A stretch of 64,000 nucleotides of DNA, from NCBI GenBank assembly GCA_029260715.1, contig JAJDCS010000039.1:1-64000 (forward strand). The letters run 5' to 3'. This DNA comes from Phycisphaeraceae bacterium. GTDB lineage: Bacteria > Planctomycetota > Phycisphaerae > Phycisphaerales > Phycisphaeraceae. The stretch's first letter is position 1. Each line of letters opens with the position of its first letter. Shown here in pieces: positions 1 to 16,536 of this stretch. The translations under genes and the position numbers were made by a program. The notes below the pieces were generated by a model that saw nothing but the letters and a program-made list of their open reading frames with translations, had not been told where the DNA came from and ran no database searches.

Positions 1-3000
1 CGCCGCTGGGCTACCGCCCACGCTCGGTACGGAATCGAACAGGTGACTCTGCCAGACCAACAGGTCCAGCCCGTTGACCAGGCCGTCAAGGTTGAAGTCG
101 CCTTGGTCCCATCCATCGCCGCTAAAAAGATTCGCCTGCCACGTCAGCAGGTCCAGCCCGTTGACGATGCCGTCTAGGTTCGCGTCGCCGGGGATCGCCG
201 CCACAAGCGTTAAACCGGTGTTGCCGTCGTAGTCGTATAGAGGGGCAAGCGTCATATTCGAGTTGATAAGCAGCCCGTTCATCTCATCAAACTCACCGCT
301 GCGCGCGGCGGCGGTGACGATGATGAACTCGTTGAAGTAATCGGGTGTAAAGCCGGGGGCCAGGACGATATCCAACTCGCCTGCGAGTGAGACGTCGCTG
401 GTGACGTTCACTTGGTCGTAGTCCGTGCCCGCCACGCCGCCACTGGCAGCTAATTCGACCGCGAGTGTTGAGTTGGCTTCAAAGACCGCGGCGCCCAGGC
501 CTAGCGTGCCGACGGAGGCGCCCGGTGCGACGGTGCCGCCGGCGTTGACGGTGGTGGTGCCTGCGGCGGAACCCGTGCCGCCGAGCGTGCCGCCGCTATT
601 GATGGTGACGCCGCCCGTGCCCGTGGCGGAGCCGGTGGTGTTGTTGGCTAGCAGCGTGCCTGCGTCGATGGTGGTGGGGCCGGTGTAGGTGTTAGCGTTG
701 GTGAGTGTGAAGGTGCCGGTGCCGATCTTGGTCAGCGAGCCTGTGCCGCTGAATGCTTCGGTGATGCGGCCGCTGAAGGTCGTGTTGTCGTTGTTGTCCC
801 CGACGCGCAGGTTGGTGCCCCCGGCGTTGGAGTTGCCAAAGTTCACAAAGCCTTGGCCGGATAGCGAGCCGATCGTTTCCGTGCCCACCCCCAAGAAAAA
901 CCTCAGGGAGGCGCCGCTGTCGACGGTCACGGCCGTCCCGTTGGGCAGCCGCTCGCTGGCGCCGCTGACGTCCAACGTGCCCTGCTGGACCGCGGTGGGG
1001 CCGGTGTAGGTGTTTTCGCCCAGGAGGTTGAGCACGGTGCCGGACCCTGATTTCGTCAACCCGCCGGCGCCGGAGATATTGCCCAGAAAGTTCTTAGACT
1101 TGGATTGATTGACGGTCAGCATGGTGGTGGGGAGCACGAGGCTGCCTCCGGTGCCCGACAGGCTTGACACCGTCTGGGTGGCGTTTTCAAATTTCAGCTC
1201 GCCGGCGTTGATTGTGATCGCTCCGGTCGGGGCCAGCGACCCGGTTGAGGCCACGACCAGCCGCCCGGAGTCCACGGTCGTGCCACCGGTGTACGTGTTC
1301 ACGCCCGTTAGCCGGATGCCGCCGATGCCCGCTCCGAAGAGTGGCCCGTCGGCGATTGTCAGGCCACGGGCCCCACCGCCATCGTTAATGGCCGCGAGGT
1401 TGGAAAAAAAGTTCGCCGGTCCGTCCGGGTTGTCAATGAAGATCGTCGCCGAGTTGTTCAGGTTGATCGCGCCCACAAAGTCCGTCACCCGCCCCAGCGT
1501 GAAACTCCCGTAGATGTCCAGTGTGTTAGACAACACGCGCGGCGCGGCCCCCGCCCGGATGCCCCCGCCGAACATCGACACCGTCGCCGACCCCAGCGCC
1601 GCGTTGCTGCCCACTTCGAGCGTGCCGTCATGAACCTCAATCACGCCGGTGAGCGTGTTGGTCTGGTTGAGGATCAACATCCCGCCGCCGGTTTTTACCA
1701 GTTGCCCAGAGCCAGAGATGACCCCGGCGTAAGTACCGAGAGCCGTCTGGTTGAATTCGAGTGTGGCGTTGTCGGCCACGCCGTTGGACGCGGGTAGGGA
1801 GTTGGTGTTGACTACCAGCTTGCCCCCGGAGACGGTGGTGCCTCCCTCGTAGGAGTTATTACCGGTAAGCGTCTGCGTCCCGGCTCCGGTCTTGGTCAAT
1901 GTGCCCGTGCCCTCTAGGGTGCCTGAAAAATCCCCCGACCCGCCAGCCGCGCCGACCGTGAGGTTCCCCAGGCTGATCACACCCGCGCCGCTGATCGCGT
2001 CCACCGTTTCGGTCGAGACGGACCAACGCCCGTCGGTGAGCACCTCCACGTCCGAGGTGTCGGGGATGTTGTGGTTGGTGGTTTGGTTGAGTATCGCTGA
2101 CTCGGCGTTCCCTATACCGTCGCCCACCTGGACGTTCCCGGCCATCGCGTCGACACCGCTGTTCTTGGACAGTTTAAGCGTCCCGTTGTTGATCTTGGTC
2201 AACCCCGTGTGCGTGTTGAAGAACGCACCGGAGAGGGTCTGCATGCCCGTGCCGGTCTTGGTGAACGTCCCGCCGAAGCCTTGGAGTCGGCCCGAGAACG
2301 TATTGCCCCCCCCGAACGAAATGCCCCCCCCGTTGTCCGCCCCCACCGTCAGGTTCCCTAGGTTGATCACACCCGAGCCGCCGACATCGTCCACCGTCTC
2401 GGTCGACACGATCCAGAGCCCATCGGAGTTTATAAACACGTCCGTGGTGTCGGGGATGTTGTGGTTGGTGGTTTGGGTGAGCACCGCGGTTCCGACGATT
2501 CCTGAACCGTCGCCGAGGATGACAGGTCCGGCTAGCGCGTTCACCCCGCTGTTTTTGGACAGTTGAAGTGTGCCATCAGCGACTGTCGTAAACCACGTGT
2601 TCGTGTTGGGAGCTGAGCCGGACAGGGTCATCGTCCCCGTGCCGGACTTTTGAAAGCTTCCTGACCCAGATATCACGCCCGAGAAGATAGTGTTGTTGTT
2701 ATTAAATCCGACAGCCGCGCCAGCGTTGAGCACCACGTTCCCGGCCCCCGATAGCCCCCCAAAATCCTCGGCAGCCGCGACACGCAGCGTTGCTCCGGAT
2801 GAGACGATGACCTCGGTGACGGACCCGACCGAGTTGCCGACACCGATTTCCAATGTCCCGGCTTCGACGTTCATGTTTCCAGTAAAGGAGCTGTTGTTCC
2901 CGGAGAGGGTCATGGTGCCCAAGCCTCGCTTGGTGAGGGGTTGCGCCCCAGACAGCGACCCGGAGAAGGTGGTGGTGTCGTTATTGACCCCGACAATCAT

Positions 3001-3687
3001 GACGCCATCGAGGATGGCGTTTCCGGCCCCGGCGAGGCTGCCGAAGCGGTCGCCCTCGGCCATGCGCAGGGTGGCTCCCGAGGCGACCGTGACCTTGGTA
3101 ATGTCGCCGAGTGAGTCGCTGACGCCGGCTTCCAAGGTCCCGTCGTTGACGAACACGTCGCCCGCAAAGGCGCTGTTGTCGCCCCTGAGCGCGAGCGTTC
3201 CGTTTCCGGTCTTGGTCAGAGAGTTTGGCACGCCTGCTTCGTGGGAGATGGCGCCATTAATCACAAGTGTGTTCGCCCCTTCGACAAGCCAAGTGCTGTC
3301 GGCCTGGATGCGGACGAGGGAATTGATGGTGTGGGTGGCGCCCCCCCCAGCGGGGACGTGGAGGGACAGGAACCCGCCCTGGAGCACGAGGAAGCTGCCC
3401 CCTGAGATGCTGTAGTTGGTATCGCTCTGAAAGGAAACCGAGTGGACCGCGCGGTTGTTGTCGAGATTGACATTTTTATTGGTAGTAAAGTTATCCGTAA
3501 AGAGCACGACGTCGCCAGGCCCACCGATAACGCCACCATCCCAGTTCGCTGGGGTGCTCCACAGATTATCGCCGCCGGTATCGTGCCAGAAGCGGTCCGC
3601 CGCGTGGGCGGGAACGGCGAGGGTGGCCACAAGCACCACACCACCGACGGCTGCACGGACGCGACGCAATGACAAAAATCGTTGCAT
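1..3687 (-). CDS. Giant autotransporter-associated beta-strand repeat protein with dockerin, C-terminus off window
   Basis: The minus strand is open from ATG at 3687 to the window edge, giving 1229 codons without a stop. The protein starts with a signal peptide (Arg-rich start, hydrophobic stretch, AHA cleavage-like site near residue 26). A long run of beta-helix repeats follows, with units such as NTYTGPTTIDAGTLL, typical of the autotransporter-associated beta-strand repeat family. Near the C-terminus is a dockerin-like pair of calcium loops (GDANLDGIVNGLDLL and GDFNLDGLVNGLDLL). The sequence breaks off at LFDSVPSVGGSPAA, just where the paralogues continue into VPEP and a PEP-CTERM anchor, so about 30 residues are probably missing. 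It is probably an exported, exosortase-processed surface protein. Its ligand is unknown. Confidence 0.88.
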   Translation of the reverse strand, partial: MQRFLSLRRVRAAVGGVVLVATLAVPAHAADRFWHDTGGDNLWSTPANWDGGVIGGPGDVVLFTDNFTTNKNVNLDNNRAVHSVSFQSDTNYSISGGSFLVLQGGFLSLHVPAGGGATHTINSLVRIQADSTWLVEGANTLVINGAISHEAGVPNSLTKTGNGTLALRGDNSAFAGDVFVNDGTLEAGVSDSLGDITKVTVASGATLRMAEGDRFGSLAGAGNAILDGVMIVGVNNDTTTFSGSLSGAQPLTKRGLGTMTLSGNNSSFTGNMNVEAGTLEIGVGNSVGSVTEVIVSSGATLRVAAAEDFGGLSGAGNVVLNAGAAVGFNNNNTIFSGVISGSGSFQKSGTGTMTLSGSAPNTNTWFTTVADGTLQLSKNSGVNALAGPVILGDGSGIVGTAVLTQTTNHNIPDTTDVFINSDGLWIVSTETVDDVGGSGVINLGNLTVGADNGGGISFGGGNTFSGRLQGFGGTFTKTGTGMQTLSGAFFNTHTGLTKINNGTLKLSKNSGVDAMAGNVQVGDGIGNAESAILNQTTNHNIPDTSDVEVLTDGRWSVSTETVDAISGAGVISLGNLTVGAAGGSGDFSGTLEGTGTLTKTGAGTQTLTGNNSYEGGTTVSGGKLVVNTNSLPASNGVADNATLEFNQTALGTYAGVISGSGQLVKTGGGMLILNQTNTLTGVIEVHDGTLEVGSNAALGSATVSMFGGGIRAGAAPRVLSNTLDIYGSFTLGRVTDFVGAINLNNSATIFIDNPDGPANFFSNLAAINDGGGARGLTIADGPLFGAGIGGIRLTGVNTYTGGTTVDSGRLVVASTGSLAPTGAITINAGELKFENATQTVSSLSGTGGSLVLPTTMLTVNQSKSKNFLGNISGAGGLTKSGSGTVLNLLGENTYTGPTAVQQGTLDVSGASERLPNGTAVTVDSGASLRFFLGVGTETIGSLSGQGFVNFGNSNAGGTNLRVGDNNDNTTFSGRITEAFSGTGSLTKIGTGTFTLTNANTYTGPTTIDAGTLLANNTTGSATGTGGVTINSGGTLGGTGSAAGTTTVNAGGTVAPGASVGTLGLGAAVFEANSTLAVELAASGGVAGTDYDQVNVTSDVSLAGELDIVLAPGFTPDYFNEFIIVTAAARSGEFDEMNGLLINSNMTLAPLYDYDGNTGLTLVAAIPGDANLDGIVNGLDLLTWQANLFSGDGWDQGDFNLDGLVNGLDLLVWQSHLFDSVPSVGGSPAA

Positions 3688-3920: not shown

Positions 3921-3959
3921 ATTGTAGTAGCAAGTGAAACCCCCACCAAGGTTTTTTAC
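3921..3959 (-). promoter_or_regulatory. Sigma70-type promoter of the beta-strand repeat gene, with shared T-rich element
   Basis: Read on the minus strand there is TTGGTG, a 17-base spacer and TACAAT (-35 at 3949-3944, -10 at 3926-3921). The -35 box lies at the end of GTAAAAAACCTTGG (3959-3946). The identical 14-mer overlaps the -35 box of the paralogous gene at 12257. The leader to the ATG at 3687 is about 225 bases. Confidence 0.6.
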
Positions 3960-5280: not shown

Positions 5281-5904
5281 ATGCCCCTAACCCCGTCACA
5301 ACCCGCTCGCCTGCCCTGGCCTGTCATCGCGTTCACGCTGCTCTATATGTCCGCGGCCATCCTGGTGTCGCTCGTGACCGAGAACACCGAGTTCATGTTC
5401 TACGTCGCGGTCATGATCGTGCTGATCGCGGTGGTCAGCGTGGTGCACCTGCGTGTGAGCCTCAGCCAAGCAGTGCTGTGGGCGCTGAGCGTCTGGGGCA
5501 TGCTGCACATGGCGGGCGGGCTGGTGCCGGCGCCCCCGGACTGGCCGATCGACGGGGACATACGTGTGCTGTATAGCCTCTGGCTGGTCCCCGATATGCT
5601 CAAGTACGACCACGTCGTCCACGCCTACGGGTTCGGCGTGACCACTTGGGTCTGCTGGGAAACACTCCAACGCGGACTGGCGCTGGTGGGCATGAACCTG
5701 CGTCCGACCTTCGGGCTGATGGTCCTGTGCGCTGCTGCGGGGCTGGGCTTTGGCGCGCTCAATGAAGTGGTCGAGTTCTTCGCTACGCTCACCGTCCCTG
5801 AAACCAACGTCGGCGGGTACGAAAACACCGGGTGGGACCTCGTCGCCAACACCGTCGGCTGTACCGTGGCTGCGATCATCATCTGGCTACAGGGCCAAAG
5901 CTGA
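5281..5904 (+). CDS. DUF2238/YjdF-like integral membrane protein
   Basis: The protein has 207 residues and about six hydrophobic segments. The ATG at 5281 is preceded by GGAGG eight bases upstream; an in-frame GTG at 5272 overlaps that site and is rejected. Family-like features are the polar stretch DHVVHAYGFGVTT and the later FGALNEVVEFFAT and GGYENTGWDLVANTVG segments, with conserved acidic and His residues inside membrane helices. Its function is unknown in the family. It converges with the PEP-CTERM gene ending at 5879, overlapping it tail to tail by 26 bases. It is divergent from atpG, so the 72-base gap must hold both starts. Confidence 0.75.
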   Translation: MPLTPSQPARLPWPVIAFTLLYMSAAILVSLVTENTEFMFYVAVMIVLIAVVSVVHLRVSLSQAVLWALSVWGMLHMAGGLVPAPPDWPIDGDIRVLYSLWLVPDMLKYDHVVHAYGFGVTTWVCWETLQRGLALVGMNLRPTFGLMVLCAAAGLGFGALNEVVEFFATLTVPETNVGGYENTGWDLVANTVGCTVAAIIIWLQGQS

Positions 5905-8900
5905 AACCCCGCCGCCGCAACAACAGCGCCGCGCCCCCCACCGCCAGCAGCCACACCGCGCCCGGCTCGGGCACGCTTTGCGCCGCCGCCACCGCTCCGC
6001 CGCCCAGGCTCTGCACGGAGTCGAACAGGTGGCTCTGCCAGGTCAAAAGGTCAAGCCCGTTGACCAGGCCGTCCAGGTTGAAGTCGCCCTGCACCCACTG
6101 ATCGCCGCTGAACAGGTTCGACTGCCACCGCAGCAGGTCCAGCCCGTTCACAATCCCGTCGAGGTTCGCGTCGCCGGGGATCGCCGCCACCAACGTCAGA
6201 CCAATGTTGCCCTCGTAGTCGTACACCGGCGCAAGCGTCATGTCGGGGTTGATAAGCAGCCCGTTCATCTGCCCAAACTCGCCGCTGCGCGAGCCGGCTG
6301 TGATCACGACAAATTCGTCAAGGTACGACGGCATGAACCCGTTGATTAGAAAGACGTCCAGATCGCCGCCGCCGAGCGATACGTTTTGAGTGATGTTGAT
6401 CTGGTCGTACTGGTCGCCCGGCGTGGTGCCACCAAGCTCGATTTCAACGGTGTTGGTTTGCGGAAAAATGGCGTTGCCCCCGATGTTAATCGCAGCGGGG
6501 CTGTTGCCCGGGCTGAAACCGCCTGAGAAAATGATGTTGCCATCGAAGCTGCCGATGCCCGACACGTCGCCGGTGAACTCGATCGCGTCGCCCGCGTCGG
6601 GCCCGACGCCTTCCACGTAACCCTGATTAATAAAGTCGCCGTTGATCACGCCGTAGCCCGCCACATTCTTGCCCTGCTCAAGCAGGGACCCGTTGACCGC
6701 CGTGAGCGTGCCGGGGCTGGCCAACGTGGATTGATCCCCGATCGTGGTCAGCGACCCCAGCACCGCGGCATTTGCGTCCAAGATTTCTACCAGGTGATCC
6801 CCCACCACCAACTCGCCATCACTGAAGAACCCCGCCACAGACGCGGCATCACCGAGCGCCAGATCGCCCGTAGCCATGACCGTCGTGCCGCTCTGAGCGG
6901 CGATGCGCCCGGTGATCGCGCCGTGAGCCAGGATGCTGTTACCCACCGGCACCGCAGCGCCGTTGGGCACGCTGAGCGTGCCGCCCGCGATCGTCGTGAA
7001 TTGCCCGATGTTGAAAAACCCGGCCTTGAGCAGCGTCACCGTGTGCGCCCCCACGTTCAGCGGGCCGGTCAGCGTTAAACCCGTGAAGCTGGTTGGATCG
7101 CCGAGTGTCAACGACCCCTCCGCCGTGACAGTGCCGTGGGCGACCACGTCGCCTGCGAGCGTGCCGTGGCCCGAGAAGTCGGTGACGCCCAGGTCGATCT
7201 TGTCAGCCGATACGGTGCCGCCGTCCAGGTCCAGCGCGGTGACTGGCCCCGCCCCGGTTAGGTCGAGCGTGCCCGTGTAATCAACCGAGCCAGACACATG
7301 CATCAACGGCGTGGTGATCGTGCCCGTATCAACTTCGACTGTGGCATTGTCCCACACGCGTAGTTGGCCGCCAATGGTCACCGCACCGCCCGTGTTGATC
7401 GTTAGCTCAGCGGTGCCCCCGGCGGTGGTTTCGTTGCCGCCCAAATACACCGACCCGGCGTTGTTCCACTGGGCGGTGCCGCCAGCCAAACTCTGCATCA
7501 GCAACTCCGAGTGCTGCCCAGCAGCGGCGGATACAAACGCGTTGTCGTTCGAGGCGACACCCTGCTCCGAAACGACCAGCTGCGCCCCCGCCCCACCGAC
7601 GCTGCCCATGTTGATGTCACCCGTGACGGTCAGTGTGCTGCCTAAGCCTTCAACAGCAAGCGGGATAGTGCCCGTGCCGCCAATCTCTACGCTATCGCTG
7701 TTGACATCTCCGTCGCGGACGATAAACAGCAACCCGTTGCCGGTTGGCCCCACGCGCAGTGTGTCCGACACATTCAGCGTCATGTCCTCGCCCACCACGA
7801 ACACAAACCCCGTGGGTGAGTTGGCGTCGGCAGTGAAGTCGCCGTTAGTGATGTTGACCGTGCCGGCCGTCCAGTTGAGCGTGCCGGCGCCGCCCGCCAG
7901 GGAGCTGGCATTCACCACCGCGAACTCGCCGTCGATGTTCAGCTTGCCCCCCGCATCAATGGTGAGTTGGCCACCCACATCAAGCGTAGCCTGGTTGATC
8001 ACATCGACCGTCCCGGTTGACCGTATCACCATATTGTCGTCTACCTCGACCGAGGTGTTGAGGCCGTTGGGGAGGAGGTCTTCGAGGGTCAGGCGCGCGG
8101 AGCCGCCGGTTGCGATGGCGGTGCCGCCGACATACAGCGCGGCGTTGTTAATCCACCGGCCGTCGTTCAGGGTCACGGTTGAGCTGTGCCCCGGGATGGT
8201 CGCGATGAAGGCGTCGCCTTGGTTGCTGACGATCCCGCTGTCCGCGATGGTCATGTTCGCCGTGCCGTGCGCGCCCACGGTTAGCGTGCCGCTGTTATCC
8301 CACCGGCTGGAACCGTCGGACACCGTCACGGTCCCGCTTGAGCCGGGCAGGAACCCGACCAACCCCAAAGAATTGGACATCTCTCCGCCGTCGCTGAGGA
8401 TCATCGTCCCTTGGCCGCTGCTGCCCACGATGGTGAATTGCGAGTTGATCCACTCGGCGTGGTTGGTGATCTCCAGTATGCCTTTGGTGCCGGCGGCGCT
8501 GCCGATGTGTACAGCGGCGCTGGTGCTCACCTGGGCGTCTTCTCCGGCTGCGGGGAAACTCTCGGTGTCGCCCTGGACTGTGAGCTTCGCGGCTAAAGAG
8601 GCGCCGGCACTGCTGCTGATGTTGGCCGCGATGCCGGTGGTGGTGTCGAGAGTGTACACATAACCAAACTCGAGGTTCCCGAATTGACCGGCTTCTTCTT
8701 CGTATAAGTCGAACGTGACGCTGCCCGCCCGGACCTCGAAATTGTTGTTGGTGACGTTGCTGTGGATCCGAGTCGTGTAGCCCCCCAGCACGTCGAACAC
8801 AGCCGTGTCGTTCCCGTCGTTGGGCGGGCCGCCGCCGGGCGTCCAGTTGCTTGCAGAAGTAAAACCACCGGTAGATGGTGTCGCCCAGTGAAAGACCGTG

Positions 8901-8974
8901 CCTTGGGTGGCCGCAACCGCGAAACCAAACACAGCCGCGAAAGCAACCCACGAACAGTTGGCCAAATGTTTCAT
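5879..8974 (-). CDS. PEP-CTERM surface protein with T5SS/PEP-CTERM-type repeats and dockerin
   Basis: This 1031-residue exported protein has a signal peptide at residues 1-24 and a first domain typical of the group (FHWATPSTGGFTSASNW, GGGPPNDGNDTAVFD). Repeats rich in Gly, Thr and Asn follow, such as GTVTVSDGSSRWDNSGTLTV, resembling the T5SS/PEP-CTERM-associated repeat. A two-loop dockerin-like segment lies at about 928-983, and the C-terminus is VPEPGAVWLLAVGG, hydrophobic residues and RRRG. GGGGGAGGAG stands nine bases before the ATG. It lies 76 bases downstream of the next paralogue and has no obvious promoter in that gap, so it may be co-transcribed with it. The dockerin/PEP-CTERM tail is almost residue-identical to that of the neighbour. 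Confidence 0.9.
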   Translation of the reverse strand: MKHLANCSWVAFAAVFGFAVAATQGTVFHWATPSTGGFTSASNWTPGGGPPNDGNDTAVFDVLGGYTTRIHSNVTNNNFEVRAGSVTFDLYEEEAGQFGNLEFGYVYTLDTTTGIAANISSSAGASLAAKLTVQGDTESFPAAGEDAQVSTSAAVHIGSAAGTKGILEITNHAEWINSQFTIVGSSGQGTMILSDGGEMSNSLGLVGFLPGSSGTVTVSDGSSRWDNSGTLTVGAHGTANMTIADSGIVSNQGDAFIATIPGHSSTVTLNDGRWINNAALYVGGTAIATGGSARLTLEDLLPNGLNTSVEVDDNMVIRSTGTVDVINQATLDVGGQLTIDAGGKLNIDGEFAVVNASSLAGGAGTLNWTAGTVNITNGDFTADANSPTGFVFVVGEDMTLNVSDTLRVGPTGNGLLFIVRDGDVNSDSVEIGGTGTIPLAVEGLGSTLTVTGDINMGSVGGAGAQLVVSEQGVASNDNAFVSAAAGQHSELLMQSLAGGTAQWNNAGSVYLGGNETTAGGTAELTINTGGAVTIGGQLRVWDNATVEVDTGTITTPLMHVSGSVDYTGTLDLTGAGPVTALDLDGGTVSADKIDLGVTDFSGHGTLAGDVVAHGTVTAEGSLTLGDPTSFTGLTLTGPLNVGAHTVTLLKAGFFNIGQFTTIAGGTLSVPNGAAVPVGNSILAHGAITGRIAAQSGTTVMATGDLALGDAASVAGFFSDGELVVGDHLVEILDANAAVLGSLTTIGDQSTLASPGTLTAVNGSLLEQGKNVAGYGVINGDFINQGYVEGVGPDAGDAIEFTGDVSGIGSFDGNIIFSGGFSPGNSPAAINIGGNAIFPQTNTVEIELGGTTPGDQYDQINITQNVSLGGGDLDVFLINGFMPSYLDEFVVITAGSRSGEFGQMNGLLINPDMTLAPVYDYEGNIGLTLVAAIPGDANLDGIVNGLDLLRWQSNLFSGDQWVQGDFNLDGLVNGLDLLTWQSHLFDSVQSLGGGAVAAAQSVPEPGAVWLLAVGGAALLLRRRGFSFGPVAR

Positions 8975-9050: not shown

Positions 9051-12000
9051 TTAGCCGATCGGCGTGCTACGGCCGACGCGCCGCCGCGGTAAGAGCCCCG
9101 CGCCGCCCACCGCCAGCAGCCACACCGCACCCGGCTCGGGCACGCTTTGCGCCGCTGCCGCCGCGCCGCCGCCCAGGCTCTGTACCGAGTCGAACAGGTG
9201 GCTCTGCCAGGTCAAAAGATCGAGACCGTTGACCAGCCCGTCGAGGTTGAAGTCACCCTGCACCCACTGATCACCGCTGAACAGGTTCGACTGCCAGCGG
9301 AGCAGGTCCAAGCCGTTGACTATCCCGTCAAGATTCGCGTCGCCGGGGATGGCCGCCACCAGCGTCAGCCCGATATTGCCCGCATAATCGTACACCGGCG
9401 CCAATGTCATATCGGGGTTGATGAACAGCCCGCTCATCTGGCCAAACGCACCGCTGTGCGAGCCGGCGGTGAGGATGACAAACTCATCGAGGTATTCCGG
9501 CGTGAACCCGTTAAGCAGAACAACGTCCAGCGTGCCGTCCAGTGAGACGTTGGCGGTGACGTTCACCTGATCGTAATCGCCGCCCGCCACACCGCCCGAC
9601 CCAGCCAGCTCAGCTTCATACGTAGCCGCGGCACCGAAAACAACGCTCCCCGCGACATCCGCCCGCCCCGGGCTAAACCCGGGCGAAAGCGTGCCGTTGA
9701 TTACCACGTCCCCGAACGTCCCCACGCCCTTCACGTACCCATTAAGCGTCACCGGCTCACTCACCGAGTTGCCGCCGATGAAGCCGTTGTTGATCAACGG
9801 CTTGGTCGGGTCGTTGGGCGTGTCCACCGTCCCGTACCCGGCGATGTTCTTGCCGAACTCGACGAGCAACCCGTTCGCCGCGACCAGCGTGCCGGGGTTG
9901 GCTCCATCGCCCAGCACGGTCAACGAACCCAGCACAGCCTCGTTAGCGTCATGGATTGTCACGGTGTTTGAGCCTGTGTACAGCTCGCCGTCGGAGAAGA
10001 ACCCTGCCAACGAGTTCGGGTCGCCAAGCGTGAGGTCGCCGCCGTCGGCTTCGATGGTCGTGCCGCCGTGGACGAACATGCGCCCGTCAATGGCGCCAAA
10101 GGCGGAAAGGTACAAGCCCGGCCGCATGGAAACACCGTTGGGCACCGACAGCGTCCCGCCCATGATGCGCGTGAAGCTGTGCATGTCCCAGAAGCCTTTT
10201 TCGAGGACGGTGACGTGGTGGGCGCCGACGGTGAAGGCGATGTCTTCGGATATGCGCACGGCATTGACAACATCGGCCCTGCCCATGGTCAGGTCGCCGG
10301 TGGCGAACACACCCTTGTTGGCGATCACGACGCCGTCAAGCGTGCCGTAGCCCTGGAAGGTGCTCGAAAGAAACTCGATGGGCGGGCCTACGGTGATCGT
10401 GCCGCCTTGGAGAAACAGGCGGTCGATGTTGCCCGAGCCCAGAGGATCGACCTTCACGAATTGGTTGGCGAACGTGACGTGCCCGCCTTCGGTGACGGTC
10501 AGGTCGGGGATGTCGAACGCGATGTTAGTGCCTATAGACAGCGCCCCGGAGACGACCACATCCGTGGCGGCGTTGGTGTTGAACACCGCGTTGTTCTGCA
10601 GCGTCAGCGACCCGGCCACCTCCAAGTTGTCGATTGTTAGCGTCGCGTTGTCGACGAGCATGGTCGCCCCGCCCCAGAGCTTCAGGAAGTCATCAACTTG
10701 CATCACAGCTTGGTTGGAAACGCTGACGACGGCGGTGCCCCCGGGGGTGTTGAGGTTGCCCCCGACGTAAAGGGCGGCGCCACCGTCCCAGGTGGAGCCT
10801 GTTCCGGTGACGTTGACGGTGGCGTTGGTGCCGGCGAACTCGGCGAGTCGGGATGAGAAGAGGTGGTAAACGTCACCGCCGCCCTGGACGTTCAAAGTGG
10901 CGTTGGTGGTGCCGCGGACTTCGATGGAGACGGCTTCGAGTAGAGCGGCTGCGTTGTTGAGTGTGACGGTGGCGGGATCGGTGCCGGGGATGAGCGAGCC
11001 GATTTCGACAATGCCCCCACCAGCCTCGCCGGTCAAGGTGAGCGTCCCGCCGGCGGTGGGGCCGACCTTGAGCAGGTTGGTCGAGAGTTCCTGGTTGAAG
11101 AAGGAGGAGACGGAAACGTTCCCGCCCAGCGGCGCGTTGGCGTCGATGGAAATCTCGTTTTGCACGAAAAATTGACCCTCGGTCCAGGTGATTGAGTTGG
11201 CCGGGCCGGTGAGCGTTTCGGTGACGAAATCGCCGCGACCAAGTGTGAGCGAGCCGCCGGGGTGGATGACGGTGTCGTTTTCGATGTAGATGCGGTCTCC
11301 CAGTTCGAGGTCCACGGTGCCGTTGCCGTAGATGACGAAGTCGTCGCCGATAGTGATGTTTTCTCCAAGGATGAAGCCTGTAGAGATGAGGTTTCCGTTT
11401 CCGCCTGGGCCTGAGGGGCCGCCGCCGACGTACAGGGAGCCGTCTGATTCGAGGCGGCCGTCGTTGAAGAGGTTGATCGTGCCCACGGAGCCGGACTCTT
11501 CAGCGATGAGGATGTCGCCCGCGGTGGTGTGCACAAACCCGGAGGTGGTGTCAATATTGAGTGTGCCGGTGCCCTCCTTGCCCACGACCAGGGCGCCGGT
11601 CGTGTTCTCCCATTCGCCGGAAATGTCGGCTGTTCCAACCGAGAATTGGGTGAAGCCCAGCACACCGGAGTGGGAAGTCATTTTGGAACTGGTGTTGAGA
11701 TCGAGGGTGCCGTTGCCGTTGAGGCCCACGTACGTGGCAGCCGTGCTGGTCCAGTTGGTGCCGTTGAGGTTGAGGGTGCCTTGGGTGTTGCTGGCTCCCT
11801 CAGCGATCTGCAGCACTTGGCTGGTTTGTACAGCCGATCGGGAGCCGCCCCCGCCGGAGCCACCGGACAGTGTGAGGCTTGTGGAGAACAATGCGCCGGG
11901 GAAGGTGCTGATGATAGCCGCGGCGCTGGTGGTGGTATCTAGCGTGTAGGTGTAGGCTGAGCCTATGGGGATGGCGGGGTCGTGCAGGTCGAAGGTGGGG

Positions 12001-12257
12001 TGTCCGACGCGCACCTCAAATCGATCGTTGGTAATGCTGGCGTCGAAGTCGACGGTGTAGGTGTTCGCAACGGTGTTGAAAGTGGCGACGTCGGCTCCGT
12101 CGTTTGGCCAGGAGGTCGAAGTACTGCCGGGTGACCAGTTGGCCTGATCGTCGAAGTCTCCGCCACTGGGGTTTGTCCAACTGAAGGTGATCGCATCAGC
12201 GGGGCTGGCGATGGCCGCAACAATCAGAGCTATCGCGGGGTAAAAAGTACGTCTCAT
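9051..12257 (-). CDS. PEP-CTERM surface protein, second tandem paralogue, with dockerin
   Basis: The start was set at ATG 12257 because GAGGAG lies seven to eight bases upstream and a signal peptide (MRRTFYPAIALIVAAIASPADA) begins there; the frame is open to 12323. The protein has 1068 residues. The order is signal peptide, WANP/NWSPG-type N-terminal domain, many beta-helix repeats (for example GTLNLNGTNWTSTAATYVGL), a conserved SFTRIMGGTLSVPNG region and the SPGFSPGRADVAGSVVFG motif. Two dockerin calcium loops and a VPEPGAVWLLAVGGAGLL tail with Arg residues complete it. It is probably anchored or sorted by an exosortase not seen in this window. The promoter is at 12354-12395. Confidence 0.9.
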   Translation of the reverse strand: MRRTFYPAIALIVAAIASPADAITFSWTNPSGGDFDDQANWSPGSTSTSWPNDGADVATFNTVANTYTVDFDASITNDRFEVRVGHPTFDLHDPAIPIGSAYTYTLDTTTSAAAIISTFPGALFSTSLTLSGGSGGGGSRSAVQTSQVLQIAEGASNTQGTLNLNGTNWTSTAATYVGLNGNGTLDLNTSSKMTSHSGVLGFTQFSVGTADISGEWENTTGALVVGKEGTGTLNIDTTSGFVHTTAGDILIAEESGSVGTINLFNDGRLESDGSLYVGGGPSGPGGNGNLISTGFILGENITIGDDFVIYGNGTVDLELGDRIYIENDTVIHPGGSLTLGRGDFVTETLTGPANSITWTEGQFFVQNEISIDANAPLGGNVSVSSFFNQELSTNLLKVGPTAGGTLTLTGEAGGGIVEIGSLIPGTDPATVTLNNAAALLEAVSIEVRGTTNATLNVQGGGDVYHLFSSRLAEFAGTNATVNVTGTGSTWDGGAALYVGGNLNTPGGTAVVSVSNQAVMQVDDFLKLWGGATMLVDNATLTIDNLEVAGSLTLQNNAVFNTNAATDVVVSGALSIGTNIAFDIPDLTVTEGGHVTFANQFVKVDPLGSGNIDRLFLQGGTITVGPPIEFLSSTFQGYGTLDGVVIANKGVFATGDLTMGRADVVNAVRISEDIAFTVGAHHVTVLEKGFWDMHSFTRIMGGTLSVPNGVSMRPGLYLSAFGAIDGRMFVHGGTTIEADGGDLTLGDPNSLAGFFSDGELYTGSNTVTIHDANEAVLGSLTVLGDGANPGTLVAANGLLVEFGKNIAGYGTVDTPNDPTKPLINNGFIGGNSVSEPVTLNGYVKGVGTFGDVVINGTLSPGFSPGRADVAGSVVFGAAATYEAELAGSGGVAGGDYDQVNVTANVSLDGTLDVVLLNGFTPEYLDEFVILTAGSHSGAFGQMSGLFINPDMTLAPVYDYAGNIGLTLVAAIPGDANLDGIVNGLDLLRWQSNLFSGDQWVQGDFNLDGLVNGLDLLTWQSHLFDSVQSLGGGAAAAAQSVPEPGAVWLLAVGGAGLLPRRRVGRSTPIG

Positions 12258-12586
12258 TTTTTTCTCCTCAGCACTTTGGGCAATGGTACGCACTAACCGC
12301 GCCCCTCTTGTGACTGGCTCCACGGCACGCCCAATTTGTATTTACAACAATCCATTATACCTGCACTTAAGGCTTTTTCCAAGGTTTTTTACCTCAAAAT
12401 AGTTGGCAAAAACTTACGCCACAAGTGTCTCGTTCACACTCATACAGTCGGTCTTGACAACGCTACGGCAAGCCAATGCCCTATCAAAATACAAGCGTTG
12501 ACCCTAAAAACGAGTCGTTATGCTTCAGCACGCTATTTTTGATACCTCCCCCGTTTGATAACGACGCGCACGAATACCCCCGCTTT
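12258..12586. repeat. Gene-free 329 bp; partly a diverged copy of the recA/PEP-CTERM intergenic region
   Basis: Between about 12360 and 12515 this region is colinear with 15200-15355. The -35 T-rich element, a TTGACA box (12454-12459 here, 15293-15298 there) and the string AAAACGAG 57 bases after it occur at equal or nearly equal spacing. In the second region these elements precede recA; here nothing recognisable follows, so the copy looks like a leftover recA promoter and leader. Confidence 0.65.
12354..12395 (-). promoter_or_regulatory. Promoter of the 9051-12257 surface protein gene
   Basis: On the minus strand there is TTGGAA (12382-12377), a 17-base spacer and TATAAT (12359-12354), close to consensus. 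Upstream it continues into TTTTGAGGTAAAAAACC; the 14-mer GTAAAAAACCTTGG (12392-12379) is identical to that at 3959-3946. The leader to the start codon is about 90 bases. Confidence 0.7.
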
Positions 12587-15097
12587 CTAGTGCGCCCCGC
12601 CACGATCCTCACGCCGCCGCCGCAACACCCCCGCGCCCACCGCAGCCACTAGCCACACCGCGCCCGGCTCAGGCACCACCACGAACAGCCGCCCGGTCGT
12701 CAGCAGCGACGACGTGTTGAACTGCAGCCCGTTGTTGAGCGTCGGCAAGCCGATGCGGTCGAACGCGCCGGCAGCGCCCGCGAACGCGAACAGATCAAAC
12801 GCGTCACCCGCTTGCGGCACAAAGCCATTGATCAACACGATGTCCAACTCGCCGTCAGCGATGAAATCCCCCGCCACCACCACACGGTCGTGCTGCGACC
12901 CAGCGATCAACCCGCCAAGCTCCATTTCCAGGCGCGCCGACTCACCCAGGATCATGTTCCCATCCACGCCGACCTCGCCGGGGCTGTTGCCGGGGCTGAA
13001 CCCGCCCGAAAAAATGATGTTCCCCGCGTAGCTGCCGATACCAGACACGTCGCCGGTGAACTCGATCGCGTCGCCCGCGTCAGGGCCAACGCCCTCGACG
13101 TATCCCTGATTAATGAAGTCGCCGTTGATCATGCCGTAGCCGGTAACGTTCTTGCCCTGTTCGAGCAGGAACCCGTTGGCTGCGGTCAAGGTACCGGGGT
13201 TGCCTGCCGACGCCGCGTTGCCCAACGTTGTCAACGAACCCAGCACCGCCTCGTTCGCGTCCAAAAGTGTCACGATGTGATCCCCCACCACCAACGAGCC
13301 GTCACTAAAAAAACCGTCGAACGCTGAAACACTACCAATGAACAGGTTCCCGGTCGCCTCGATGGTCGAACCGATCCCCGCCGCGATCTTCCCCGCCACC
13401 GCGCTGCCGCCGATCAGGTTGTCGCCCACGCCAAGCGCCAGACCGTTGGGCACAACCAGCGTCCCGCCTGCGATCACGGTTGTTCCGACATGAACGAAGC
13501 CTTTGTGGTGCAGCGTCACGGCGTGCGAACCAACGTCTAGCACACCGCTAAGAATCTGAACGCCGGAGAAGCTGCTCGCGTCCCCAAGCGTCAGGTTCCC
13601 CGTGGCGGTAACGCCCTTGTGGGCGATGACATCGCCGGCGAGCGTGCCGCGGCCCTGGAGCGGTTTGTCAAGAATTTCGATCACGGGTGCGGTCACGGTT
13701 CCACCGGAAAGCACAAACGATTCGATGTCTTGATTCGTGCCCACCACCAGGGGCGATCCGACTTGCGTCAACGTCCCAGCCACGTCCAGCGTCTCCGTCT
13801 TGATTGTCCCGCCGTCGACGGTAACAGCGAAGTTGTCCCATACCTTCAGCAGGACGGATGCATCGACCGTCCCATTGTTATTGATTTGTAGCGTCCCTGT
13901 CCCCCCCGGCCCGTTTTCATCCCCACCGAGGAAGCCGAAAGTGTGTTGCCAAAGGGCGCTGGCGCCGGTGACCTCCACGTCAGCCGAAGTCCCGACCAGA
14001 TTGGCGATATAAGCTTGCGATGACAATACTTTTGTGCGGGCCTGGATAGACAGGGTCGCCCCGTTGGCGCCGCGCACGTGAAGCTCGCCCGAGCCTCCCA
14101 AGCTGACGTCAATATTCCAGATCGTCGACCCCGCAGCCCCCGGCATCTGCTTGAGCGTCGCCGCCGCGACCCCCGACCCGGGGTCGGCGCTGCCGATGAT
14201 GGCGTCGCCGGAATAAACCGTGCCGCCGTTGATGTTCAGCGTCCCGGTCCCACCGTCGTCATCGTTGGCCAAGTCCCCGTTGTTCCCGCCACCGACGTGG
14301 ATAAAGTCCGTGAGCAACCCGCCCTGGTTCTGTGTGCTGAGGTTGACATTCACGACACCGGTGGAACCAGGCTCGCCGGCGATATTCATATTACCGGTTG
14401 CTACGATGGCGATACCCTCGATGTTCAGTGTCCCGGACCCGAGATAACCCACGGTCATTGATGTCGGTTGCCAGAAGCCTTCGATGTTCGCGGTCCCGTT
14501 CCCGGTGGCGAAGTGCCCCAAGGACCCGACACCCCCGCTAATCGTTGAGTCTTCGTCCAGGTCCAGCCCCCCTTGCCCTCTGAACCCCACATACATACCG
14601 GCGCCACCGTTCCAGAACGTGTCGTGCAATTCGAGGATACCTTTCTGGGTGTTCCCGAACCCGACGTAAGACGATCCGGTGGTGATCACCCTGGGGCGAT
14701 CGCTTCCCGTGTTAAACCCGTCCAAGATCAGCTTCGCAGCTAACGAGGACCCCGAACTGCTGCTGATGACCGCCGCGTTCCCGAATTGTGTGGCGAGGGT
14801 GTAGTCGAAGAGTGTGGTCAAGCTGTGCAGATCAAAAGTCACCGTGCCGGCCCCGACGCTGAAGCCCGAGTTGGTCACGTTGCTGCTGAAAACGACGGTG
14901 TAGGCTGCTAACTGGTTGAAGATCGCGAAATCGTTTGAGTCGTTGGGCGGGCCACCGCTAGGCGTCCAGTTGCCGGCGGTGTTGAAAGTCGAGCTGGTGG
15001 TCCTGTTCCAGCTAAAGTTCACCCCCCATGCGCTGCCGCCGCTCATGCCGATCGCCACCGCGAACACCGCACATAGGCTGATATCCAATCGTCTCAT
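12587..15097 (-). CDS. PEP-CTERM surface protein, third tandem paralogue, without dockerin
   Basis: ATG 15097 was chosen because GAGGAG lies shortly upstream (GAGGAGATAAAAATG) and a signal peptide starts there; the frame is open to 15169. The 836-residue protein has the same plan as its two neighbours: signal peptide, NWTPSGGPPNDSNDFAIFN domain, repeated beta-helix segments (GILELHDTFWNGGAGMYVGF) and the SPGNSPGEVGVDGNMILGES motif. It then ends with VVPEPGAVWLVAAVGAGVL and RRRRED. The dockerin present in the other paralogues is absent, replaced by AGAAGAFDRIGLPTLNNGLQ and nearby sequence. It is divergent from recA. Export and exosortase sorting are inferred from the tail. Confidence 0.9.
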   Translation of the reverse strand: MRRLDISLCAVFAVAIGMSGGSAWGVNFSWNRTTSSTFNTAGNWTPSGGPPNDSNDFAIFNQLAAYTVVFSSNVTNSGFSVGAGTVTFDLHSLTTLFDYTLATQFGNAAVISSSSGSSLAAKLILDGFNTGSDRPRVITTGSSYVGFGNTQKGILELHDTFWNGGAGMYVGFRGQGGLDLDEDSTISGGVGSLGHFATGNGTANIEGFWQPTSMTVGYLGSGTLNIEGIAIVATGNMNIAGEPGSTGVVNVNLSTQNQGGLLTDFIHVGGGNNGDLANDDDGGTGTLNINGGTVYSGDAIIGSADPGSGVAAATLKQMPGAAGSTIWNIDVSLGGSGELHVRGANGATLSIQARTKVLSSQAYIANLVGTSADVEVTGASALWQHTFGFLGGDENGPGGTGTLQINNNGTVDASVLLKVWDNFAVTVDGGTIKTETLDVAGTLTQVGSPLVVGTNQDIESFVLSGGTVTAPVIEILDKPLQGRGTLAGDVIAHKGVTATGNLTLGDASSFSGVQILSGVLDVGSHAVTLHHKGFVHVGTTVIAGGTLVVPNGLALGVGDNLIGGSAVAGKIAAGIGSTIEATGNLFIGSVSAFDGFFSDGSLVVGDHIVTLLDANEAVLGSLTTLGNAASAGNPGTLTAANGFLLEQGKNVTGYGMINGDFINQGYVEGVGPDAGDAIEFTGDVSGIGSYAGNIIFSGGFSPGNSPGEVGVDGNMILGESARLEMELGGLIAGSQHDRVVVAGDFIADGELDIVLINGFVPQAGDAFDLFAFAGAAGAFDRIGLPTLNNGLQFNTSSLLTTGRLFVVVPEPGAVWLVAAVGAGVLRRRREDRGGAH

Positions 15098-15194
15098 TTT
15101 TATCTCCTCAGCTTTCTGACCAGCGGCATGGATACACCGCGCCCTCCCCTTTGGATAGGCCCGTGACAAGCTGGGCCTATCTCTGCAAGAAAGT

Positions 15195-15235
15195 ATTATA
15201 GCAATACTTAAGTATTTACCAAGTGTTTTTTATCT
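15195..15235 (-). promoter_or_regulatory. Promoter of the 12587-15097 gene, with a palindrome filling the spacer
   Basis: On the minus strand there is TTGGTA (15222-15217), a 16-base spacer and TATAAT (15200-15195). The spacer contains the perfect 14-bp palindrome AATACTTAAGTATT (15203-15216), placed like an operator. Upstream lies GAGATAAAAAACACTTGG, the third version of the T-rich element. Confidence 0.7.
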
Positions 15236-15292
15236 CAAAAACGGGCAAATAGAAAGACCTTATCCGTTGTTCTAAAAAGCCATTTGGGCGGT

Positions 15293-15321
15293 TTGACAAA
15301 ACCCTAACAAGCCAATACCCT
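15293..15321 (+). promoter_or_regulatory. Candidate recA promoter
   Basis: TTGACA (15293-15298), a 17-base spacer and TACCCT (15316-15321). The -35 box is perfect and the -10 box is poor. The same arrangement is preserved in the duplicated leader at 12454. No known planctomycete LexA site could be recognised. Confidence 0.45.
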
Positions 15322-15360
15322 ACCAAAACACGAACGCTGGCCCTGAAAACGAGGTGAATT

Positions 15361-16536
15361 ATGGTGAGCATGACCCGCAGTGTAGAATCCAAGACACCAG
15401 CCAAATCCAACGGACACTCCAAAACCCGCACAAAGGCAAACAACACCATGGCTAAAACAAAATCCCCCCCAGCACCCGTCGTCGTGTCCGCTTTAGACGC
15501 CACCGGCCCCGCGCGCAAAGAGGCCCTAGACCGGGCGTTGTCCCAGATCGAGCGGGCTTTCGGCAAAGGCTCGATCATGCGACTCGACGACGACCCCTCC
15601 ATCGTGATCCCCGGCATCTCCACAGGGTCGATCAGCCTCGACCTGGCCCTGGGCGGGCGTGGCATCCCTTGCGGGCGTGTGGTGGAGGTCTTCGGGCCTG
15701 AATCGTCCGGCAAAACAACACTTACGCTCCACCTGATCGCCAGCGTGCAAAAACAGGGCGGCGTGGCGGCGTTCATCGACGCCGAACACGCCCTGGACCC
15801 CGCCTGGTCCCGTCGTCTGGGTGTGAACCTCGAAGACCTGCTGGTCAGCCAACCCGATACCGGCGAACAGGCCCTTGAAATCTGCGAACTGCTGGTCCGC
15901 TCCAGCGCCGTCGAGCTGGTCGTGGTCGACTCCGTGGCCGCGCTGATCCCCCGCGCCGAGATCGAAGGCGAGATGGGCGACACACACGTGGGCCTGCAAG
16001 CCAGGCTCATGAGCCAAGCCATGCGCAAGCTCACCGGCGCTATCAGCCGCAGCAAATGCACCGTGGTCTTCATCAACCAGATCCGCGAGAAAATCGGTGT
16101 GATGTTCGGCAGCCCCGAGACCACCCCCGGCGGACGCGCACTGAAGTTTTACGCGTCCGTGCGATTGGACATCCGCCGCACCGCGTCGATCAAGGAGGGC
16201 GACGTGGCTGTGGGCAACCGTGTCCGGGCCAAGGTCGTCAAAAACAAGGTCGCCCCGCCGTTTCGCCAGGCCGAGTTCGACATCATGTTCGACGAGGGCA
16301 TCAGCGCCACAGGCGATTTAGTGGACCTGGGTGTGGAGTGTGACGTTGTGAATAAATCCGGCGCATGGTTCAACTACGGCGACGTGCGCCTGGGCCAGGG
16401 CCGGGAAAACGTCAAACGCTTCCTCAAGGAAAACCCCTCGCTGTTTGAGGAAATCCGCTTGGATATCATGAAGGCCAAGGGGATCGGAAATGCGCCCGCC
16501 GACGCCGAGCAAGTAGAAGAACCCGAAAAAGCTTAA
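15361..16536 (+). CDS. recA: Recombinase RecA
   Basis: The protein has 391 residues. It is the DNA-dependent ATPase that forms filaments on single-stranded DNA for homologous recombination and the SOS response. Walker [10 protein letters not shown] is at residues 112-120, followed by [30 protein letters not shown], the L2 region [18 protein letters not shown] and the C-terminal [10 protein letters not shown]. The start is ATG 15361 with GAGGTGA upstream. This gives an unusually long, Lys/Ser/Thr-rich N-terminal extension of about 30 residues; an internal ATG at 15448 would give a protein of more usual length. It is divergent from a surface protein gene. Confidence 0.97.

Follow-up and report, generated by a model that had tools for sequence, protein, structure and literature searches.

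A sigma-70-type promoter layout with an upstream A/T tract at PEP-CTERM genes of a Phycisphaeraceae bacterium

Here, we provide evidence that about half of the genes of a Phycisphaeraceae bacterium that encode exosortase-sorted surface proteins (PEP-CTERM genes), and almost no other genes of its genome, carry a promoter layout in which an A/T tract is joined to a sigma-70-type core. We propose a promoter class of the UP-element type that is used almost only for PEP-CTERM genes and whose upstream half is this element, a reading derived from sequence to which we assign a probability of a little under 60%. The proposal is supported by the position and spacing of the element, its genome-wide specificity, the helical phasing of its tracts, the absence of sigma-54 elements and the conservation of an RpoA motif. 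The layout suggests that a lineage outside the Proteobacteria possesses its own common control element for sorted surface proteins. It is a strong candidate for a PEP-CTERM regulatory motif outside Proteobacteria as anticipated by Haft et al. 2006 (PMC1569441), who expected that more motifs and regulators would come to light, both within that phylum and beyond it.

Promoter sites and genes in the window

The window is the whole stretch of DNA that was analysed, 64,000 nucleotides with which contig C33 begins; the draft assembly comprises 3.32 Mb in 44 contigs. The closest named records of the RecA protein are distant ones from Planctomycetota, including Phycisphaera sp. (73–80% identity). The genome has a PEP-CTERM/exosortase system, with two exosortase genes and 86 PEP-CTERM matches listed at E values up to 1, most of them above the cut-off. 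Genes of the window are named after their start coordinates (Table 1).

Table 1. Coordinates of promoter sites, genes and further features in the window and elsewhere in the genome
Feature	Location	Strand	Description
Promoter of gene 3687	window 3921–3959	−	GTAAAAAACCTTGG at 3946–3959; −10 TACAAT at 3921–3926; spacer 17
Promoter of gene 12257	window 12354–12392	−	GTAAAAAACCTTGG at 12379–12392 (A-tract and −35); −10 TATAAT at 12354–12359; spacer 17
Promoter of gene 15097	window 15195–15234	−	GATAAAAAACACTTGG at 15219–15234; −10 TATAAT at 15195–15200; spacer 16
Gene 3687	window 1–3687	−	secreted, autotransporter-like large repeat protein ending in a dockerin-like region; truncated by the contig start
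PEP-CTERM gene	window 5879–8974	−	1031-aa PEP-CTERM protein; 76 bp downstream of 9051–12257
Gene 12257	window 9051–12257	−	PEP-CTERM protein of 1068 aa; contains T5SS/PEP-CTERM-associated repeats and a dockerin-like region
Gene 15097	window 12587–15097	−	836-aa PEP-CTERM protein, paralogue of 9051–12257
TTTTGRTAGGGYATTGGCTTG blocks	window 12469–12489 and 15308–15328	−	about 80–100 bp upstream of the promoters of genes 12257 and 15097
AATACTTAAGTATT	window 15203–15216	−	perfect 14-bp palindrome between the −35 and −10 of the promoter of gene 15097
A-tract exception	C33:125992–126028 (L102)		gene without PEP-CTERM tail
T-tract exception	C26:3566–3602 (L126)		gene without PEP-CTERM tail
Exosortase locus	L316:8725–16111 (C5)		see text
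NtrC-type response regulator	L316:14615–16111		within the exosortase locus
TPR/alpha C-terminal domain protein	L376:1057–1998	+	~312 aa
TPR/alpha C-terminal domain protein	L378:1192–2130	−	~312 aa

A sequence-only reading of the window had described three sites overlapping the −35 boxes of large surface-protein genes, identical at genes 3687 and 12257 and each followed after 16–17 bases by TACAAT or TATAAT. All three sites and their −10 hexamers were found as described, with spacers of 17, 17 and 16 bp (genes 3687, 12257 and 15097) when counted from TTGGNN, and TAAAAAAC-N0-2-CTTGG occurred three times in the window, whereas 100 shuffles gave 0.00 occurrences on average. That reading also described the coding N-termini as different, which is incorrect for genes 12257 and 15097, whose products both start with MRR and have 37% identity over the N-terminal ~290 aa. 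This level of identity extends through the N-terminal and central parts of the two proteins, both of which carry a VPEPGAVW tail, and their upstream DNA is homologous over ~280 bp, including the leader and the ribosome-binding region. The three sites are real; however, as 12257 and 15097 are tandem paralogues with homologous upstream DNA, the window provides two independent cases rather than three. The upstream region of gene 3687 showed no significant similarity to the other two outside the 14-mer and, having only the 14-mer in common with that of gene 12257, did not inherit this match together with its flanks. A PEP-CTERM tail of gene 3687 is not seen because the gene runs off the contig start; its dockerin-like C-terminal region recurs in the product of gene 12257, with 48% identity where the two align. 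The gene at 5879–8974 is probably cotranscribed from the 12257 promoter, as its own promoter match is only weak (8.5 bits).

Association with PEP-CTERM genes in the genome and in relatives

A first scan with mismatches allowed identified four more sites at three mismatches, where ~0.03 were expected. The refined pattern, AAAAAN{1,3}CTTGN{17,21}TANNAT, has 12 separate matches in the genome of 3.32 Mb, and its reversed form, used as a control, has none. As a caveat, the refinement made use of PEP-CTERM upstream regions, although it involved no tuning against other genes. Eleven of the 12 matches lie upstream of PEP-CTERM genes (p ~1e-15 at a baseline of ~3.6%), a count that takes in the three window genes, with the truncated 3687 among them, and two that fall short of the cut-off of the family listing or lie outside it; without the window sites, eight of nine matches precede PEP-CTERM genes (p ~2e-11). 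The sequence-only reading had proposed a genome-wide scan to ask whether hits lie upstream of such genes, and the refined pattern gives a clear answer. A mirror form with a T-tract was found at six places, four of them at PEP-CTERM genes. The loose pattern without a −10 matched 14 places genome-wide that were mostly within genes, which indicates that the −10 is needed.

It could be argued that the sites reflect chance, or upstream DNA merely inherited through gene duplication. Duplication does account for the pair 12257/15097, but as a full explanation it is refuted by the eight of nine matches outside the window and by the dissimilar upstream region of gene 3687. The other sites precede PEP-CTERM genes elsewhere, mostly on other contigs, whose products appear unrelated on inspection, and we regard this explanation as hardly tenable.

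Further support comes from a two-block weight matrix that was seeded with the three window sites only; four fifths of the genes served for training and the remaining fifth for scoring; upstream regions were taken from 70 PEP-CTERM genes, and control genes were called with a simple ORF caller. Scores above 14 bits were reached by 30 of 67 held-out PEP-CTERM genes and by 1 of 208 other leading genes, and scores above 10 bits by 37/67 and 12/208, respectively (p 2e-17). Training on order-2 shuffled upstream regions gave weaker motifs (summed score 384–539 versus 931 with the real ones; information 13–14 versus 18 bits), and the held-out result is therefore not a product of noise fitting. In a background sample of 464 kb (the window plus 400 kb of other stretches of the genome), where PEP-CTERM genes make up ~3.6% of genes (11/309, hand-checked), a first matrix yielded eight sites above 16 bits. 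Five of these had a downstream gene in range, four being flagged as PEP-CTERM and the fifth being the truncated gene 3687. A good match is missing at about half of the PEP-CTERM genes, some of which may be operon-internal, as 5879–8974 probably is. The element provides a DNA handle to predict co-produced surface proteins and to help call uncertain PEP-CTERM genes, and it opens the regulation of exosortase cargo in planctomycetes to direct tests.

In a set of 60 relatives, PEP-CTERM genes follow 19 of the 80 distinct pattern matches that could be inspected (p ~2e-12 at a 3% baseline), and other matches precede LacI/GntR-type regulators and prepilin-like genes. When PEP-CTERM genes of the relatives were chosen regardless of promoter, 4 of 21 scored above 10 bits, as compared to one on the reverse strand. 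Considering the 19/80 matches but only 4/21 genes, conservation in the relatives is partial; the link exists in the family and is strongest in the present genome. The prepilin-like genes preceded by the pattern in relatives L267, L268, L274, L284 and L306 (FTLIELLVVISIIALL) represent another exported class.

Promoter architecture and the UP-element reading

The core of the element, CTTG at −35 followed after 16–17 bp by TANNAT, is sigma-70-like and agrees with a general form of TTG, 16–18 bp and TANNNT. The promoters recognized by ECF-type sigma factors have a consensus of their own, and their form was not matched by the −35 and −10 of the element. Canonical TTGACA/TANNAT promoters were found at 14 places upstream of diverse genes including the 16S rRNA operon, whose promoter candidate TTGACA-16-TACCAT lacks the tract. 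Two of the 14 precede PEP-CTERM genes and both carry the tract; a similar A/T run is present in two of the other 12. These observations bear on the view that the sites are ordinary sigma-70 promoters of the organism without a special link to PEP-CTERM genes, for which the sigma-70-like core and the occurrence of the pattern upstream of regulator and prepilin-like genes in several relatives could be cited. However, the diversity of genes behind TTGACA promoters speaks against this view, the high scores of 1/208 other leading genes versus 30/67 held-out PEP-CTERM genes largely refute it, and we consider it improbable.

What sets the PEP-CTERM genes apart is the tract of 5–6 bp of A or T at −44 to −39. 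In a profile anchored on the −35 and −10 alone, the A/T fraction at −44 to −39 is 0.88 in PEP-CTERM promoters versus 0.40 in other leading genes, and further enrichments occur at −52 to −49 (0.73 versus 0.53) and −62 to −60 (0.72 versus 0.44). Enrichment is absent between these three blocks, and from −80 to −64 PEP-CTERM promoters do not differ from other leading genes. The A/T content follows a period of 10.5–11 bp (0/2000 permutations), and the fitted curve peaks at −41.5, −51.8 and −62.1, positions that alpha C-terminal domains occupy on UP elements. Of 42 sites, 18 have runs of at least five As, nine have T runs and 15 have mixed tracts, and the occurrence of all three types suggests that the tracts are read by shape rather than by base. 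Alignment to solved alpha subunits showed that SVRxxNCL, a motif of the alpha C-terminal domain, is retained in the RpoA encoded here; the domain's DNA-contacting residues we take to be those of E. coli. As the phased tracts stand at alpha positions and the RpoA motif is kept, we prefer an UP-element-type promoter and place a dedicated regulator second.

UP elements are A/T tracts upstream of the −35 that comprise two subsites and are bound by the alpha C-terminal domain, and in rrnB P1 the proximal-subsite adenines at −43 to −41 are critical (PMC4390567). The element resembles the UP element of Estrem, Ross and Gourse (as described in PMC4390567) in that A/T adjoins the −35 directly (about −46 to −38, with the proximal tract around −43 to −41), a further, distal tract lies one helical turn upstream, and either strand orientation is tolerated. 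Known UP elements belong to the promoters of stable RNAs and to a minority of those of mRNAs, whereas the tracts described here mark one class of surface-protein genes and alpha binding is predicted; the absence of a tract from the rRNA promoter candidate counts against the UP-element reading. Briefly, a sigma-70-type core promoter is fused to the tract at −44 to −39, with weaker tracts at ~−51 and ~−61, one and two helical turns upstream, and the alpha C-terminal domains of RNA polymerase probably bind the minor groove of these tracts. Such binding would raise promoter strength, leading to a high or commonly tuned output of sorted surface proteins. The candidate sites would start transcription and thereby coordinate expression. 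This would be an unusual use of UP-type elements, marking a functional gene class rather than stable RNA genes.

Candidate regulators and known PEP-CTERM regulation

The shared promoter element that the sequence-only reading had proposed for surface-protein genes is strongly supported. Its further proposal, that one regulator or growth condition switches these genes together, remains hypothetical. An UP element, read by RNA polymerase itself, accounts for the phased tracts no less well than a regulator's operator does. In its explicit form, this alternative regards the A/T tract and CTTGG as the binding site of a dedicated regulator under which the PEP-CTERM genes would be switched as one regulon; the regulator would be an activator that overlaps the −35 or else an alternative sigma factor of group 2. 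The near-exclusive association of the element with one functional class is compatible with such a regulator, as are a 310-aa group-2-like sigma factor that the genome encodes besides the main sigma factor, an NtrC-type response regulator adjoining one exosortase, and two TPR proteins whose tandem alpha C-terminal domains might recognize tracts of the UP type. However, the core matches sigma-70 (TTG/TANNAT) as do other promoters of the genome, and the acceptance of either tract orientation and the repeats at helical spacing are unlike a sequence-specific operator. None of the candidate regulators could be tied to the element, nor could a sigma factor, with 13 sigma-70 region 2 matches listed in the genome. 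We see a dedicated regulator as possible, although rather unlikely.

The two TPR proteins, which the genome encodes in addition to a true RpoA, are ~312-aa paralogues on other contigs, each with TPR repeats and two tandem alpha C-terminal domains (Table 1). They could possibly act as stand-alone readers of UP-like tracts. It is intriguing to speculate that planctomycete PEP-CTERM genes form a regulon in which such tracts are read in trans by a protein that carries domains of the alpha C-terminal type, a long shot that, if true, would place the sorted surface proteome under the control of stand-alone copies of an RNA polymerase domain.

Regulation of PEP-CTERM genes is known from Proteobacteria, where a sigma-54 element lies upstream of 99 of 167 such genes and was found in no other phylum (Haft et al. 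2006, PMC1569441). The sigma-54 site of Haft et al., which goes with PrsK/PrsR, and the present element are alike as DNA elements shared by most PEP-CTERM genes of a genome and located in long non-coding upstream regions. They differ in that the former combines −24(GG)/−12(GC) sigma-54 boxes with an activator site and the latter a sigma-70-like core with an A/T tract. A −24/−12 promoter with a PrsR site could be suspected here too, given that exosortase loci harbour a PrsT-like TPR protein and a response regulator of the NtrC type. However, TGGCAC-N5-TTGCW with at most one mismatch was found in 0 of 70 PEP-CTERM upstream regions and in 2 of 292 controls, and in the PrsR equivalog test, applied to the NtrC-type regulator of the exosortase locus, this protein scored 366.9, below the cut-off of 502.6. 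The absence of −24/−12 boxes and the sub-cut-off score refute this explanation at the sequence level and leave it a negligible probability. In addition to the regulator and an adjoining HATPase kinase-like protein, the exosortase locus encodes the PrsT-like TPR protein, just below its cut-off, and a polysaccharide export protein. An RpoN-dependent PEP-CTERM gene is reported from Aquincola (PMC9850573), which is similar in that transcriptional control of PEP-CTERM genes is linked to aggregation; the sigma factor and the phylum are other than those here. In the literature on PEP-CTERM promoters and regulons and on Phycisphaerae, we found no such element reported for Planctomycetota.

Two exceptions to the association precede genes without a PEP-CTERM tail, one with an A-tract, upstream of a small secreted-looking protein, and one with a T-tract (Table 1). 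The small proteins of both have similar N-termini (FQVSDLSRIAY and FQASDLTRAVY) and are possible non-PEP-CTERM members of the same gene set.

Rfam matches on the window were limited to one tRNA, and a sensitive Rfam scan of 12250–15500 gave no credible match; no known RNA leader was found. In the upstream regions of the paralogue pair, the TTTTGRTAGGGYATTGGCTTG block is conserved better than the intervening DNA; it was found only at this pair in the sequences covered, and the copy at 15308 lies directly upstream of the divergent recA start. The spacer of the 12257 promoter contains GCCTTAAGTGC, an imperfect form of the palindrome AATACTTAAGTATT in that of the 15097 promoter, and this palindrome is possibly a repressor site.
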